Of a DNA stretch of 20,028 nt, positions 3,763 to 19,042 are shown piece by piece. The DNA is taken from the IMG/VR virus record IMGVR_UViG_3300037427_001144, positions 1 to 20,028 of that record; one strand, given 5' to 3'. Each line of letters starts with the position of its first letter. Position 1 is the stretch's first letter. The DNA is from a virus. Under the pieces are notes generated by a model. It saw only the letters and a list, made by a program, of their open reading frames with translations, was not told the origin of the DNA and searched no databases. The position numbers were made by a program, and so were the translations under genes.

Positions 3763-4077
3763 CTATTTCTCCTCTGAACAATATGGATGACCTAAAAAGT
3801 CCCATTTAATCCAATCCTCGCACTCTAATGATGCGATATGGTCTACCTCTTCTTCTGGTGTCATACACACCTTTTCATTGTGTAATATTCTTGAAAATCT
3901 GCAATCCTTCTTAGTCACACCCGAAAGCGCATGTTCACCTGTTGATTTACCTGTTGATTTTATGGATATGAAATCAACACCTGTATGTGCAATTGATACC
4001 CAAGTGGGCACAATTCCACAACCACTAATCAACCAAACTGTTCCGAATGTTAGTAAAAGTACCTTTGTCAAAGACAT
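3763..4077 (-). CDS. Small lipoprotein
   Basis: A 104-residue protein with a lipoprotein signal: MSLTKVLLLTFGTVWLISGC, lipobox LISGC with the lipidated cysteine at residue 20. The mature part contains IKSTGKSTGEHALSGVTKKDC, which resembles a small conserved protein family I remember from alphaproteobacteria (GKS..DHALS..T..DC), where no function is established. Five further cysteine-containing positions follow the signal. The start overlaps the ATP-pyrophosphatase gene by 53 bases, but TAGGAG 7-12 bases upstream and the signal peptide itself support it. A phage lipoprotein could serve in exclusion of other phages, lysis or envelope change; none of these is shown. Confidence 0.8.
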   Translation of the reverse strand: MSLTKVLLLTFGTVWLISGCGIVPTWVSIAHTGVDFISIKSTGKSTGEHALSGVTKKDCRFSRILHNEKVCMTPEEEVDHIASLECEDWIKWDFLGHPYCSEEK

Positions 4078-5341
4078 CCCACACTCCTATTCTGTCGTAG
4101 TCTAAGACTTCATTCCTCTTGAAATACTTACCATCGTCCATAATCAGTTTATTCCTAATTTGTCCTAGTCCTACAGGGACAGTCTTAGGAAATGACGTTT
4201 CTTTGGTCTTGTTATGCAAATAATTATCGTCTTTGTTATACTCGTAAATGAACTCTTTGGAAGGCCACTTATAGGTCTTCCATGTTCCCTTATGTTTCAA
4301 ATCATGATTGAGTATAGACCATCTCTGGAAATCGTCACAATTGAAGAAACTTTCCATACTTCTCCAATCGGTTGGTGGTTCTAGATAACCGAACAGTCTA
4401 CGGTCTATCCATTGCCATTTAATGGAAAACGCTAACCACCAAGTAAAGTCAAATGTGTTCTTAATCTCAAAAGGACAAAGTTTATTGAATTCCTCACACC
4501 ACTCTATAAATGCATGATATAAAGGTCTATTTAGTGGTCGGTCATCTCGTATCTCATATATGTTATTTGAGTCGTCCCAATTGAATAGTTCTTTCCAAGG
4601 TTCGTTTATTTCCTCAATATGGTTCTCTACCACGAATGTCCCATACATGGGGTCGCCACATTCACCTGTTACATTAATCGTCCCATCAGAAAATCGTGAT
4701 ACATCCCACATATTTTCCTTGGTAGACCACTCCAATGGCAGTCCTAGTTTTTTGATTATGTCGTAATAGGTCGGGTTCTCTTCTATACTCTTATCTGACA
4801 AGAGTACACGAAGAGTTGTATCCTTTGGTTGATTTTGTATAAGTGCAGTAAGGGCAGTTGTTGAATCTATACCACCACTCCACCAGAGTCTTATGTCATC
4901 ACTCATACCCCATAGTTCTTGAGCTCTCTTATGACATACTTCTGGGAATGTCATGTTCCAATTGTCTGTTGATGGGATTGGGTTATGAAGAGTATTGAAT
5001 ATACTCCATGTATCAGTGCGATCAAATGGTAATGGACAACTAACTAATCTACCAGCTGCATATAGGAAGTTATTACCTAACTCCCCTATCCTTCTCCAAT
5101 CGCCCGCATATGGATTGCGTTTGATACCGTTAGAACGTGCATATTTGTATTGATTTTGTTCAGTGACAATAACTTGTCCCTTGGTATAGTGGGGATCACC
5201 TGTTAGTGGATTTAGAGGTTTACCTAGAGTTTTCCAATCTCTCTCATACTCTTTCCAATCATCTTCCATTTCCATACCCAATGGATTCCACTCAATCATT
5301 TCTGGATAAAATGTCGTGGAGAAAAACACCACTTTACTCAT
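4025..5341 (-). CDS. Asparagine-synthase-like ATP pyrophosphatase
   Basis: A 438-residue protein with one clear motif: RLWWSGGIDSTTALTALI (about 151-168), the SGGxDS PP-loop of ATP pyrophosphatases. GECGDPMYG (226-234) lines up with the GDGGDELFGG loop of asparagine synthase B. Such enzymes activate a carboxylate with ATP and release pyrophosphate before amide or other bond formation. There is no N-terminal Cys-2 glutaminase domain; the first 140 residues look unrelated, so ammonia or an amine would have to come from elsewhere. AAGGTG sits 7 bases before the ATG. Its neighbours are the small secreted-type protein upstream and the lipoprotein downstream. Other PP-loop roles (tRNA thiolation, cyclisation) are possible, but the second motif favours the asparagine-synthase branch. 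Confidence 0.75.
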   Translation of the reverse strand: MSKVVFFSTTFYPEMIEWNPLGMEMEDDWKEYERDWKTLGKPLNPLTGDPHYTKGQVIVTEQNQYKYARSNGIKRNPYAGDWRRIGELGNNFLYAAGRLVSCPLPFDRTDTWSIFNTLHNPIPSTDNWNMTFPEVCHKRAQELWGMSDDIRLWWSGGIDSTTALTALIQNQPKDTTLRVLLSDKSIEENPTYYDIIKKLGLPLEWSTKENMWDVSRFSDGTINVTGECGDPMYGTFVVENHIEEINEPWKELFNWDDSNNIYEIRDDRPLNRPLYHAFIEWCEEFNKLCPFEIKNTFDFTWWLAFSIKWQWIDRRLFGYLEPPTDWRSMESFFNCDDFQRWSILNHDLKHKGTWKTYKWPSKEFIYEYNKDDNYLHNKTKETSFPKTVPVGLGQIRNKLIMDDGKYFKRNEVLDYDRIGVWDVFDKGTFTNIRNSLVD

Positions 5342-5624: not shown

Positions 5625-5936
5625 TTATACCCCAAAACTCTCACCACAACCGCAAGAACTTGTGGAAGTCGGATTCTTTACTGCGAGAAAAGAACCGCCT
5701 AATTCTGTAACATAGTCAATGACACTACCTAATACATACACCTCTGCAAGAGGGTCTAACACCAATACATCTTCTATTGGTTCTGACCATTTTACATCTG
5801 GCCAGTTGTCCGAAAAGTCCCATACATATTGGAATCCAGAACAACCACCACCCTTCACGCCCAAAGAAACATATCGCCCTTGCGATACGTTCTTCAGATA
5901 GTTCTTTGCGTTATCTGTAAGAGTAACTGGTTGCAT
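5625..5936 (-). CDS. A-type iron-sulfur carrier (IscA/HesB family)
   Basis: A 103-residue protein, the usual length for A-type carriers, which hold and deliver [2Fe-2S] or [4Fe-4S] clusters to target enzymes. The three cluster cysteines are present: C32 in GGGCSGFQY and C95, C97 in SSCGCGESF. The family glycine and acidic positions around LDPLAEVYVLGSVIDYV also fit. It begins 4 bases after the ParB-like gene stop. No scaffold, desulfurase or target enzyme is next to it, although the DUF1289 protein at the end of the operon could be a client. HesB-like genes are known in marine T4-like phages, so this is a typical accessory metabolic gene. Confidence 0.93.
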   Translation of the reverse strand: MQPVTLTDNAKNYLKNVSQGRYVSLGVKGGGCSGFQYVWDFSDNWPDVKWSEPIEDVLVLDPLAEVYVLGSVIDYVTELGGSFLAVKNPTSTSSCGCGESFGV

Positions 5937-9282: not shown

Positions 9283-10064
9283 AATTGAGTTATTTTTCCC
9301 CAATAGGGTTTGGATCGGAATTTTCTACCATAATCACCTACTACATGTCCCAAACCTAGTAAAAATGCAAAGTTTTTAGTAAGGTCTGTACTCTTAGTTG
9401 CGTCTGGGAATAATGGTATTGTGGGTTTGTTCTTTATGAATCTTACACATTGACAAAATGATGCATCTATGTTATTTTGATTTGCAATGACAGCTATGGA
9501 GTATCCCACCATACTAGTAGCCATTATGAAATGTGTTTTCCAAGAGTTTTCATCAGAAATATACACATCAGACCTTCTATAGACTTTGGGTTCATATGTG
9601 AATTTGATTAACCAAGGTGCAAGAACCTGTGTATTAAATGCATATTCCATCTCTGGAACTTCATCATTCTCTTCTGTAGTATAACACCCCCTGTTCATGA
9701 CAACCTGTAATTTCTTCTCATCTGTATCTGGTTCTTCTTTTCTCAACTTAGTATACAGTTCTATATTCTCCATGTATTGTTTCCTATTCTTCTGAATAGT
9801 TTTCAAACTTAAATCTTTGGGTAGTTGTCGTCCATCACCATTCTTCAGACATATTGTATGGTCAAGGAGTTCTTCTTTCTCCTTCTTATATTTGGGCCCA
9901 TATACCTCTAATCTGAAATCATAACAGTCATTTTTTACAGGAGTATTTCTCACCGCATGGTCTATGATTTCTGTTATAGCTTGTTTGGAGGGAATTTTGT
10001 CTTGGTCAAATACACGGTAATTTTGTCTGCGTTTCAATCCGTGATCTATATCAATGAAGTCCAT
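9276..10064 (-). CDS. Nitroreductase-like protein
   Basis: A 262-residue protein. RRQNYRVFDQDKIPSKQAI near residue 12, followed by DHAVRNTPVKNDCYDFRLEVYG, has the layout of nitroreductase/flavin oxidoreductases (RRS.R.F....I....l..il..A...Ps..N.qPw...V). A hydrophobic helix with glycines (MATSMVGYSIAVIANQNN) falls where the dimer and flavin contacts usually lie. Key flavin-binding residues cannot be verified by eye, so it may have lost catalysis. Its ATG overlaps the kinase stop (TAATG), which puts it at the end of the baseplate operon. Why a redox-type protein should be made late, with tail genes, is unclear. Confidence 0.6.
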   Translation of the reverse strand: MDFIDIDHGLKRRQNYRVFDQDKIPSKQAITEIIDHAVRNTPVKNDCYDFRLEVYGPKYKKEKEELLDHTICLKNGDGRQLPKDLSLKTIQKNRKQYMENIELYTKLRKEEPDTDEKKLQVVMNRGCYTTEENDEVPEMEYAFNTQVLAPWLIKFTYEPKVYRRSDVYISDENSWKTHFIMATSMVGYSIAVIANQNNIDASFCQCVRFIKNKPTIPLFPDATKSTDLTKNFAFLLGLGHVVGDYGRKFRSKPYWGKITQFK

Positions 10065-10726
10065 TATCTTTTCTTCTTTTGCAACTCCATTGCAATCCAG
10101 TTCTTAGCTCTGGTGTTAGATACTTTTTTCCTCAGTAACCCTTGTACTCGTTTCCATACAGAACTGAATACGTCCTCACCAGCGTCATTATTATCTACTA
10201 CAACAAATCCTGACCTAAACATACTATTGAATTTACCTATATTAGCTTGTACATCTTTCCATGACTTGACTACTATAGGTTCTGGTACAGAACGAGGGCG
10301 TTCTGCATTACGTTGTAATGCGGTATCTAATGAGGTGTTGACAAATATCATATATGTGTCATATCCTAGTTCTTCTAGTTGTCTTTTCTGATAGAGTATC
10401 TTTTCTGATTCTCTACCTGTACCATCTATGATAAGTCCTAGTCTACCCTCTAGGTAGTTTTCTTTTCTCTTTGCAGTTATCTCTTTTGCACGACCACGAA
10501 TTTCATCCCTATCTTTCTCTTGGGACTTGGGCATCTTTAGAGACAAACCCGCCTGTTTCAACTTTCTCTCAAAGTCATCATCAGAATTAACTACTTTGAG
10601 TCCAGTTCCCCCTGTGGTGCGCCTGACAACATAGGATTTCCCACTGCCAGGCCCACCAGCTAGGAAAAACGCTTTAAATATATTGGGGTCGTAAACTCCC
10701 TCTTGTAATTCGTTGTACGTTTTCAT
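10064..10726 (-). CDS. P-loop kinase, zeta-toxin/polynucleotide-kinase-like
   Basis: A 220-residue P-loop NTPase. FFLAGGPGSGKSYVVRRTTGG (Walker A, GGPGSGKS at 24-31) is followed by VVNSDDDFE and, near residue 100, LIIDGTGRE, as in zeta-toxin and polynucleotide-kinase families, with a likely lid of basic residues (QKRQLEELGYDTYMIFVNT, ALQRNAERPR). Substrate is unknown: UDP-sugar, nucleic acid end or protein are all possible. The short N-terminal MKTYNELQEG is typical of such phage proteins as I recall them. No antitoxin-like partner is adjacent. The start overlaps the small basic gene by 53 bases and lacks a good ribosome site. Confidence 0.75.
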   Translation of the reverse strand: MKTYNELQEGVYDPNIFKAFFLAGGPGSGKSYVVRRTTGGTGLKVVNSDDDFERKLKQAGLSLKMPKSQEKDRDEIRGRAKEITAKRKENYLEGRLGLIIDGTGRESEKILYQKRQLEELGYDTYMIFVNTSLDTALQRNAERPRSVPEPIVVKSWKDVQANIGKFNSMFRSGFVVVDNNDAGEDVFSSVWKRVQGLLRKKVSNTRAKNWIAMELQKKKR

Positions 10727-15842: not shown

Positions 15843-16553
15843 ATGGCATTACCTAGAATGGATTCGGTAACTTATTCTTTAAAGTTACCGTCAACTGCTG
15901 AGGAGTTAAAATATAGACCCTTCACAGTTAAAGAACAAAAGGCATTATTGATTGCAAATGAATCAGAGGATGTTGATACTATTCAAAATGCAATTGGTGG
16001 TGTGATTAAAGACTGTTGTTTTGAAAAGGTAGACCCTTGGGTCTTACCCGCTTTTGATGTTGAGTTTATATTTTTGCAAGTAAGAGCTAAGTCCGTAGGT
16101 GATAAGGTTGATATACAAGTTCAATGTCCAGATGATAATGAGACTATGGTTCCTGTCTCAATTAAAATATCAGAAGTAAATGTAGAAATGCATGTTGGAC
16201 ATACGAATGAAATACAACTAACGGACACCATTAAACTAATCATGAAATATCCAACACTAAAGGATATTGGAATGGTTCAAACAATGGAAGGTGGACAGAC
16301 TGCACAGATATTTGATTTAATTGAAGCCTGTGTACAACAAGTTATTGAAGGTGAAGAAATACATGAACGCATTGATATGAGCACAGAAGATTTAAACGGT
16401 TTCATAGAAAGTTTAACTAACGAACAGTTTGATTTGGTTACAGCTTTCTTTGACACCATGCCTAAACTTAGTCATGCAGTTAAAGTGAAAAACCCTAACA
16501 CTGGTAAAACTGGTGAGGTTGTATTGGAGGGTTTTCAAAGTTTTTTCGCATAG
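15843..16553 (+). CDS. 26: Baseplate hub/tail assembly protein gp26-like
   Basis: A 236-residue protein. MALPRMDSVTYSLKLPSTAE followed by LKYRPFTVKEQKALLIANES is the conserved start of the gp26-type T4 baseplate proteins, and VEFIFLQVRAKSVGDKVDI also fits. In T4, gp26 acts with gp51 in hub assembly. The gene ends QSFFA-TAG, with the slippery run T TTT TTC directly before the stop, so part of the ribosomes may shift -1 and add 63 residues. The product would then be about 298 residues. AGAGGATAGATA precedes the ATG. Confidence 0.88.
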   Translation: MALPRMDSVTYSLKLPSTAEELKYRPFTVKEQKALLIANESEDVDTIQNAIGGVIKDCCFEKVDPWVLPAFDVEFIFLQVRAKSVGDKVDIQVQCPDDNETMVPVSIKISEVNVEMHVGHTNEIQLTDTIKLIMKYPTLKDIGMVQTMEGGQTAQIFDLIEACVQQVIEGEEIHERIDMSTEDLNGFIESLTNEQFDLVTAFFDTMPKLSHAVKVKNPNTGKTGEVVLEGFQSFFA

Positions 16554-16569
16554 CCCTCTCACATGAGAG
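16541..16569 (+). promoter_or_regulatory. Candidate programmed -1 frameshift site
   Basis: The zero-frame heptamer T TTT TTC (16541-16547) has the X XXY YYZ form. An 8-base spacer containing the zero-frame TAG is followed by a small hairpin: CTCTC (16556-16560) pairs with GAGAG (16565-16569), loop ACAT, or six pairs if A-T closes a two-base loop. Shifted reading enters the 63-codon frame ending at 16738. Confidence 0.65.
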
Positions 16570-16738
16570 TGTTGAAAACTATATCAAGACTAATTTTGGG
16601 ATGATGCAACATCACAAATATAGTTTAGAAGATTTAGAAAATATGATGCCATGGGAGAGGGAAGTATATGTTGGATTACTTATACAATGGTTGGAAGAGG
16701 AACAGAAGAGGATTGAGGCAGAGAGTAAAAGGAAATAA
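16547..16738 (+). CDS. gp51-like -1 frame extension of gp26
   Basis: The -1 frame stays open from inside the gp26 gene to TAA at 16738. It encodes 63 residues, starting RIALSHESVENYIKTNFGMM and continuing QHHKYSLEDLENMMPWEREV to a charged helical C-terminus. This MQHH.YSL..LE.M.PWERE.Y segment is one I recall from gp51/gp26-type proteins of marine T4-like phages. The first ATG in this frame is at 16601, has no good ribosome site, and would drop 18 residues that look like part of the domain. Fusion by frameshift therefore fits better than separate translation. The next gene starts 3 bases after its stop. Expression is not shown by sequence alone. Confidence 0.75.
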   Translation, partial: RIALSHESVENYIKTNFGMMQHHKYSLEDLENMMPWEREVYVGLLIQWLEEEQKRIEAESKRK

Positions 16739-16741
16739 CCA

Positions 16742-17113
16742 ATGGTTCAGAAGAAACTACAAAAGGGAAGTGAGTATGAACACCTAGATGTGGATGGCGA
16801 TGGTATTGTTACTGATGAGGAGCTTGAGATGGATAGAAAAATGTTAGAACTTCAAGATTTGAAGTCTGATATTGAAAATGAGGACAAAAAAGAAGATGCA
16901 CAACGGAATATGGCATGGTTTGCATTAGCAGGGATGTTACTATATCCTTCTTTAGTTGTGTTGGCTTATCTTATTAACTTAGATCAAGCGGGTAAGGTGT
17001 TGGGAGATATGGCGGCTACCTATTTCGTATCCGTTGCAGCTATTGTCGCTGCCTTCTATGGTAAGGAAGCATATGCCAAGAGTAAGGTGAAGGATACCTC
17101 ACCTAAAAAATAG
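16742..17113 (+). CDS. EF-hand protein with two membrane segments
   Basis: A 123-residue protein. The EF-hand loop DVDGDGIVTDEE (residues 16-27) has all calcium ligands in place: D16, D18, D20, G21, hydrophobic V23, E27. A charged helix (28-55) follows, then two hydrophobic segments at about 57-78 and 88-107, giving a hairpin in the membrane with basic ends (KEAYAKSKVKDTSPKK). It lies between the gp26 extension and the tape measure with gaps of 3 and 9 bases, so it is a late gene. It could be a virion protein delivered to the host membrane at infection, or a helper of tape measure insertion. Calcium binding is likely from the motif but unproven. Confidence 0.8.
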   Translation: MVQKKLQKGSEYEHLDVDGDGIVTDEELEMDRKMLELQDLKSDIENEDKKEDAQRNMAWFALAGMLLYPSLVVLAYLINLDQAGKVLGDMAATYFVSVAAIVAAFYGKEAYAKSKVKDTSPKK

Positions 17114-17122
17114 GATACTATT

Positions 17123-19042
17123 ATGGCTAAAAAATACGATGGTTCAGATGCAAACCCAATGATTGTCAAAGACATCAAGGTAGTTGAGAAAACTTCAACT
17201 GGCTTTAAGGAATTGGCACACAGATTTTCCAAAGAACATAAGGTAACAAGGGCACAAGAAAAACTACAAGCCAAGCTTGCAGAAAAACAATTAGCTGAAC
17301 AGAAGGAAGAAACAAAAAAATTAGTTCAAAGTCAAGATAGTCTGAACCAATCAATGTCTGATATGCAAAGGACGGCAGGAGATGGACAAAGGAGTAATGA
17401 AGAACATTTGAAAATGGTGCGTCAGGCTTTCGGTAATTTTAGTAAAGAAGCCAAAGATACTCAAGCGGAAATGAAACTCCAAGGGGATAAATTTGAGCCC
17501 AACAATGAAAAAAATATGGTACAAAATACCGATATGATGGTAAAGTTTCAAGAAAGACAGCTTGAACAAGCAAAGAATATAGATGAGGCTAAACAACAAG
17601 AAGAAACCTATCAAAAAACCATAGATGCAGAAAAGAGAAGGGAAGCAGGAGTAGGACAGAAGTTAATTCTTGGATCTCTTAAAAAAATGGGTGGTTATAT
17701 GAAAGGTATGTTTGACTCTACTATGAAGGTTGCAACTACTGGTATCAAGGGTGCCTTCATTGCATTAGGTATAATGGCTCTTTTAGAGTTCTTAGAGAGT
17801 GAAACATGGAAGAATTTGAAACAGAAAATGACAGAATGGATGCCAAAGATGCAAGGTTTCTATGATTATCTTTTCAAAGAAGAAACAGGACTATTCCCAA
17901 GAATAGGAAAGATATTTGATTATTTCAAAGATGATAAAACAGGTGAATTTGATTTCCTTGGTGGGTTGAAAAAAGTATGGGATAAATTTAGTGGTATAGA
18001 ACTACTAATTGGAGGTCTAGCCCTTGCATTAATATTACCTAAAACCTTGTCATTACTTGTATTTAAAGGTGCATGGAAACTTGTCACAGGTGCATTAGGG
18101 TTGACTATGAAACTCTTTCGTGGTTTAGCATCCTTGATTAAGGGAGATACTAAGAAGTTAGCGAAAAAGGTTCCTACCAAACCAACAGTAGTTGATAAAG
18201 TTAAAAAAGCCACCACATCTGTCAAAGAAACTGCCAAAAAGGTAGGAACTAAAGTTTCAACTGCGACTACAGCTGCAAAGACAGCTGTAACATCAGCGGG
18301 AGCTAAAGTTGCAACCACAGCTGGTGCAATGTCTCAAGCTGGAGCACAAAAAGTTAGTGCAATGAAATCTGCTGTTGGAAAGTTAGCTCACCTAAAAAAA
18401 TATCCTGGCTTGTTGAAAGCCGCAAAAAGAATTCCTCTACTCGGCCCCATTCTTAGTGGTGCTATGGTTGCACAATTATTGTTGAGTGATGCATCCCATG
18501 AAGAGAAAGTCAAAGGTATTGGTGGAATTATAGGTGGTGGTTTAGGTTCTGCTGGATTTGGTATGGTTGGTGCAGCTATGGGTTCTGTCTTTCCTGGCCC
18601 TGGCACCGTTATAGGTGGAATTCTTGGTAGTTTAGGTGGTTGGTTTGGTGGAGAATGGTTAGGTACTAAACTCGCTGGTTTCTTAATGGGTGATAAAGCA
18701 GCCAAAATTGATAAACCAAATGTACCTAAAGGAAAGGGTGGCCCACCACCCAAAATGGGTATGTCGCCTGGACATCCTTCACAAGTAAAACCCACACCCG
18801 CTGTTGTCGGTGGTTCAGAACCAGATAGTACAGCTGCAGCTCAAATGAGTGCAAATGCATCAGCTAATGATGCACTAAGACGTACTCAAGGTGATACTGC
18901 TGGTGGTGGTGATACAATGGCAGTAGCCGCACCTACTACTCAACAGACAACTAATAATACAACAGTTATGTCAGATTCCGCAACACCTACAGATCGTAGA
19001 TTAATGTCATTAAATCATAATTGGGTGCCTGGCTCATACTAG
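17123..19042 (+). CDS. 29: Tape measure protein, gp29-like
   Basis: A 639-residue protein, close to T4 gp29 (590), the ruler inside the tail tube. Residues 30-175 are charged and rich in Q, E and K, as in coiled coils (QEKLQAKLAEKQLAEQKEET). Hydrophobic segments follow near 205-225 and 290-330. A lysine/threonine/alanine-rich linker lies at about 345-415. A glycine-zipper stretch (about 465-520, GGIIGGGLGSAGFGMVGAAM) can insert into membranes. The C-terminus is low-complexity and hydrophilic. This order and its place after gp26/gp51-like genes support the call. The main gap is that detailed homology cannot be checked here. Confidence 0.82.
   Translation: MAKKYDGSDANPMIVKDIKVVEKTSTGFKELAHRFSKEHKVTRAQEKLQAKLAEKQLAEQKEETKKLVQSQDSLNQSMSDMQRTAGDGQRSNEEHLKMVRQAFGNFSKEAKDTQAEMKLQGDKFEPNNEKNMVQNTDMMVKFQERQLEQAKNIDEAKQQEETYQKTIDAEKRREAGVGQKLILGSLKKMGGYMKGMFDSTMKVATTGIKGAFIALGIMALLEFLESETWKNLKQKMTEWMPKMQGFYDYLFKEETGLFPRIGKIFDYFKDDKTGEFDFLGGLKKVWDKFSGIELLIGGLALALILPKTLSLLVFKGAWKLVTGALGLTMKLFRGLASLIKGDTKKLAKKVPTKPTVVDKVKKATTSVKETAKKVGTKVSTATTAAKTAVTSAGAKVATTAGAMSQAGAQKVSAMKSAVGKLAHLKKYPGLLKAAKRIPLLGPILSGAMVAQLLLSDASHEEKVKGIGGIIGGGLGSAGFGMVGAAMGSVFPGPGTVIGGILGSLGGWFGGEWLGTKLAGFLMGDKAAKIDKPNVPKGKGGPPPKMGMSPGHPSQVKPTPAVVGGSEPDSTAAAQMSANASANDALRRTQGDTAGGGDTMAVAAPTTQQTTNNTTVMSDSATPTDRRLMSLNHNWVPGSY

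Follow-up and report, generated by a model that had tools for sequence, protein, structure and literature searches.

Organization of the locus

The DNA analysed here, referred to as the window, is a stretch of 20,028 nucleotides from the IMG/VR virus record IMGVR_UViG_3300037427_001144. It contains a gp26-like gene of 236 codons with the 3' end AGT TTT TTC GCA TAG, which agrees with the original prediction that this frame ends T TTT TTC GCA TAG (16541-16553), and the run TTTTTTC lies in the gp26 frame in the phase T TTT TTC, corresponding to X XXY YYZ (Table 1). The -1 frame had been described as open across the heptamer and encoding 63 residues, and it is indeed open from 16517 (a TGA occupies 16514-16516) to 16738, where it meets a TAA stop at 16739-16741. 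Decoding with a -1 slip would produce 235 residues through the end of the heptamer followed by 63 more, a product of 298 residues, and the codons of the extension start CGC AT.., the first base of which is the last base of the heptamer.

Table 1. Features of the chaperone locus in the window
Feature	Position	Strand	Basis
TAC-N, short tail assembly chaperone, 236 aa	15843-16553	+	PF12322 (T4_baseplate) E 1.4e-64; phrog_150 E 2.6e-64; AlphaFold pLDDT 87; 2ob9 Z 8.1
TAC-NC, 298-residue frameshift product, predicted equivalent of whole T4 gp51	15843-16738	+	fusion-profile match
GGAGG, Shine-Dalgarno-like, within the TAC-N gene and 10 nt 5' of the heptamer; candidate stimulator	16526-16530	+	GAG bias; anti-SD energy
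Slippery heptamer T TTT TTC	16541-16547	+	in frame in 50/51 dereplicated relatives
-1 extension, C-terminal segment of TAC-NC	16547-16738	+	phrog_634 E 1.3e-27; tblastn; third-position divergence
TAG, 0-frame stop and terminator of TAC-N, 3 nt past the heptamer	16551-16553	+	sequence; stop positions in relatives
CTCTC-ACAT-GAGAG inverted repeat, probably not a general stimulator	16556-16569	+	present in the window; no consensus structure in relatives
Probable tape measure protein	17123-19042	+	phrog_23574 (tail length tape measure) E 1.9e-8; same order in HTVC008M

The locus very probably encodes the two tail assembly chaperones of a marine myovirus of the T4-like group, TAC-N (236 aa) and TAC-NC (298 aa). 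The match of the gp26-like protein to PF12322 scores 218 bits, the Pfam gathering cut-off being 24.5. The -1 extension matches phrog_634, "baseplate hub assembly catalyst", and also prolongs the phrog_150 profile over positions 232-276; Pfam holds no model of this C-terminal segment, its sole match there being a sub-threshold one to Stealth_CR2. By tblastn the extension matched 539 phage records, lying in the -1 frame wherever this was checked. Records of relatives annotate the TAC-N gene as "baseplate hub gp26" and the extension as "gp51, baseplate hub assembly catalyst".

One small open reading frame (16742-17113) separates the chaperone from the tape measure-like gene, and the order TAC-N, -1 extension, small open reading frame, tape measure is common to the window and HTVC008M, whose record names the corresponding gene a putative tail tape measure. 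The small open reading frame (+ strand) encodes 123 amino acids, including hydrophobic segments and a calcium-loop-like DVDGDGIVTDEE, and has a weak holin-like Pfam match below the cut-off; a hypothetical gene stands at its place in HTVC008M.

Conservation of the slippery heptamer and the -1 frame

A scan of IMG/VR yielded 80 relatives, to which named phages were added, and dereplication at 85% identity left 51, with a mean pairwise identity of 37%. An in-frame T TTT TTN is found at the same place in 50 of the 51 (N is C in 36, T in 11 and A in 3); because the sequences are related, these counts cannot be treated as independent observations. All 51 keep an open -1 frame, and in the 50 with the heptamer the extension is 55-73 residues long. 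The 0-frame stop is located 0-9 nt past the heptamer in 50/50 relatives, and 3 nt past it in 38 of these. An internal control is provided by the other Phe-Phe pairs of the same genes, which take the form T TTT TTN in 3 of 53 cases.

Over the 54 nt that directly follow the heptamer, the differences among relatives number 496 at codon position 3 of the -1 frame, versus 246 at position 1 and 195 at position 2, and the third-position excess also covers the stretch ahead of the first ATG. Of the 21 differences counted between the window and its closest relative, 18 affect the third position of -1-frame codons. Judged by this pattern of divergence, the -1 frame after the heptamer is under protein-level selection, and protein-level conservation in that frame already covers the stretch between the heptamer and the first ATG. 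The original prediction had a conserved -1 segment beginning before any usable ATG, and this is what we find: the -1 frame of the window contains no ATG, GTG or TTG ahead of the ATG at 16601.

Public records treat the -1 open reading frame as a separate small gene, gp51, with starts at differing ATGs. It would then be translated from an internal ATG (16601 here) through coupling or reinitiation, and the heptamer would be incidental, a reading that draws some support from relatives in which the gp26 stop overlaps an ATG (TAATG or TGATG), e.g., Vibrio D509 and 1.255.O. It is nevertheless very unlikely, as the conserved -1 peptide starts at the heptamer, ahead of any start codon in nearly all relatives; the -1 open reading frame lacks a start codon up to the heptamer in 46 of 50, and a -1 stop codon directly abuts the heptamer in eight. 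The first -1-frame ATG is scattered from 2 to 128 nt after the heptamer, mostly with no Shine-Dalgarno sequence upstream, and in several relatives it is absent or deep within the conserved core. Moreover, the heptamer occurs well above the codon-usage expectation, and T4 gp51 holds both parts as one protein. On the start-codon and conservation evidence, a small gene starting at the ATG at 16601 was rejected.

It is most unlikely that the frame change results from slippage of RNA polymerase on the T run. The run comprises 6 to 8 T, as such slippage might favour, but in 39 of 50 relatives it has just 6 T, its position in the phase X XXY YYZ does not vary, and the upstream Shine-Dalgarno-like element fits ribosomal rather than transcriptional slippage. 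Homopolymer runs are generally error prone, and a sequencing or assembly error could have split one long gene in the window; the probability of this is practically nil, and it is already refuted because the same arrangement is present in dozens of independent contigs and in finished genomes including P-SSM2, S-RSM4 and HTVC008M.

Programmed -1 ribosomal frameshifting, by which the phage would make a short and a long chaperone from one gene, is very probably the best explanation of the evidence as a whole. The original prediction of such an event upstream of the tape measure region, with a short and a long protein as its outcome, is supported by the heptamer in 50 of 51 relatives and the open -1 frame in all.

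Candidate stimulatory elements

Upstream of the heptamer is the motif TTG GAG GGN, which in the window places GGAGG 10 nt 5' of the heptamer. The Glu codon of this conserved Glu-Gly motif is biased toward GAG, 21:3 versus 266:762 (26%) in the rest of these genes (Fisher p 7e-10), and the mean anti-SD duplex energy at the element is -6.6 kcal/mol, versus -4.8 kcal/mol for synonymous shuffles. About one relative in two has no such element or only a weak one. The codon bias is strong evidence that GGAGG is a selected element, and by analogy with dnaX it is likely to act as a Shine-Dalgarno-type frameshift stimulator.

The -1 signal of Escherichia coli dnaX consists of the heptamer A AAA AAG, an upstream Shine-Dalgarno-like element and a strong downstream hairpin. 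It resembles the window in having such an element approximately 10 nt 5' of an X XXY YYZ heptamer, whereas the strong downstream hairpin of dnaX has no conserved equivalent among the relatives of the window.

A hairpin had been proposed as well, and CTCTC-ACAT-GAGAG does start 8 nt after the heptamer, but it is not conserved: the window and relative L001 have it complete, L041 keeps most of it, and most other relatives have lost it, and RNAalifold on 17 relatives found no consensus base pair downstream of the heptamer. Across the relatives the heptamer and the -1 frame are conserved, and the hairpin is not. Compared with synonymous shuffles, the downstream regions fold somewhat more stably on average (mean z -1.17, Wilcoxon p 1.4e-5), but they share no structure; single-sequence folding places strong hairpins 5-8 nt past the heptamer in P-SSM2, L015, L046, L050 and L074, and other lineages lack them. 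A downstream hairpin was rejected as a conserved signal, the strong hairpins being lineage-specific, and GGAGG is a better-supported candidate stimulator than CTCTC/GAGAG.

Predicted fold and homology to T4 gp26 and gp51

The AlphaFold model of the 236-residue protein was compared with solved structures, and the leading matches were 2ob9, the tail assembly chaperone of HK97 (Z 8.1), 3fgx (Z 7.7) and YqbN 3klu (Z 6.7), the next being at 4.9; we take 3fgx and 3klu to be TAC-type proteins. Residues 1-85 align with 2ob9 at Z 8.1 and an rmsd of 3.9 over 83 residues, a moderate similarity that speaks to fold and not to function. A Foldseek search of the PDB gave no significant match (HK97 chaperone, E 2.6), the gp26-like profile retrieved nothing related among PDB sequences, and a search of NCBIfam gave no match. 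By its match to 2ob9, the modelled N-terminal domain appears to have the TAC fold, with a moderate score.

When a profile was built from the decoded fusion, T4 gp51 matched it across positions 23-281 of 296 and RB49 gp51 across 23-290, while the matches of the T4 and RB49 gp26 proteins cover positions 10-236 only, ending at the slip point. Both T4 gp26 and T4 gp51 are strong PF12322 matches, and gp51 reaches the end of phrog_150; by these matches, the two are paralogues, gene 26 providing the short form and gene 51 the long form. T4 and the window share the same family (PF12322/phrog_150), the same short and long forms and the same C-terminal segment in the long form. They differ in that T4 has two separate genes on opposite strands, whereas the window has one gene and a -1 frameshift.

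The product had been described as a fusion of gp26 with a gp51-like tail. Its 298-residue length stands, but gp26 and gp51 are paralogues and not two different proteins joined, and the "gp26-gp51 fusion" is an artefact of naming, because gp26 matches TAC-N and gp51 matches the entire frameshift product. The marine "gp51", as annotated, would be only the C-terminal segment of the frameshift product, and the equivalent of gp51 would be the whole product.

Relatives without the canonical heptamer

The single dereplicated relative without the canonical heptamer is L071. Other named phages without it, vibriophages and members of the Ackermannviridae, were examined apart and are not among the 51. 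In L071 and the vibriophages D509 and 1.255.O (L085, L095) the heptamer is replaced by CTT TTC or CTT TTT, and the stop of the gp26-like frame overlaps a -1-frame ATG (TAATG). This overlap suggests reinitiation as an alternative or a supplement to slippage, and the C-terminal segment might be a free protein in this group instead of part of a fusion. The Ackermannviridae (L087, L088, L094, L096; Kuttervirus, Taipeivirus) have ATT TTC ATT TAA, without a canonical heptamer, together with a homologous -1 extension. It is possible, if doubtful, that a single chaperone family employs several interchangeable routes: Shine-Dalgarno-assisted slippage at T TTT TTC, as in the window and the majority of marine relatives, gene duplication in T4, and TAATG overlap or non-canonical slippage in D509, 1.255.O and L071 and in Kuttervirus.

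Discussion

Sequence comparison shows the frameshift signal, a -1 frame that is open and under selection, and the homology to T4 gp26 as the short form and gp51 as the long form, and from these we propose the following model. Most ribosomes would terminate at the TAG at 16551 and release TAC-N of 236 aa. A fraction would pause with two Phe tRNAs on T TTT TTC while GGAGG contacts their 16S rRNA, and these would move back one base to make TAC-NC of 298 aa, with its 63-residue added tail. If the analogy with lambda G/GT holds, many copies of TAC-N and few of TAC-NC would cover the tape measure protein and recruit tube subunits to it.

A -1 frameshift in the tail genes of long-tailed phages, including lambda G/GT, was reportedly found to be conserved by Xu, Hendrix and Duda in 2004. 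Lambda resembles the window in making a short/long pair by a -1 frameshift just ahead of the tape measure gene, and in the TAC-like N-terminal domain. The slip in lambda is at G GGA AAG and in the window at T TTT TTC, and the N-terminal protein of the window is larger than that of lambda, with mixed alpha/beta structure past the TAC-like first 85 residues.

The equivalence of the T4 hub proteins to lambda G/GT, the headline of the original prediction, is right in substance and has already been published: as described in PMC10885494 and PMC12846349, the gp26 and gp51 genes of T4-like phages were identified as chaperone genes equivalent to G/GT by Vladimirov, Gautam and Davidson (2022, Virology 566:9-15). 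By those accounts, that work also covers the poly-T -1 signals that some T4-like chaperone genes carry. The frameshift strategy and the chaperone role are thus already described for T4-like phages, and the window adds a member. Pseudomonas phage Adele (Vandenendeviridae/Andersonviridae) has a TAC locus with a GTTTTT motif (PMC12846349); these are other phage families than that of the window, but as in the window the poly-T -1 signal is at the end of TAC-N and the -1 frame is open toward the tape measure gene.

An annotation error is corrected by this analysis: the "gp51 hub assembly catalyst" of cyanophage, pelagiphage and related records would be the tail of a frameshifted chaperone. The mis-annotation is widespread, and "gp51" entries in such records carry inconsistent start codons. 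Cyanophage gp51 was found to be approximately 20% of the usual length, with the first approximately 200 residues missing (Sullivan et al. 2010, PMC3037559), which is accounted for if the marine "gp51" is the C-terminal segment alone. With their frameshifted chaperones, marine T4-like phages would join lambda, P2 and others in which frameshifting sets the stoichiometry of the tail chaperones.

Other genes in the window

Four genes on the minus strand are recorded here as separate observations. The gene at 4025-5341 encodes a 438-aa protein without a Pfam match; it contains SGGIDSTTAL, a motif characteristic of PP-loop ATP pyrophosphatases. The gene at 10064-10726 encodes a P-loop kinase-like protein that matches AAA_33 and Zeta_toxin and is probably a polynucleotide kinase-like enzyme and not a toxin. 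A sulfotransferase-like protein (2242-2844; PF03567, E 1.2e-8) is a possible auxiliary gene product, and an IscA/HesB-like iron-sulphur carrier (5625-5936; PF01521, E 5.9e-8) may represent an auxiliary metabolic gene.
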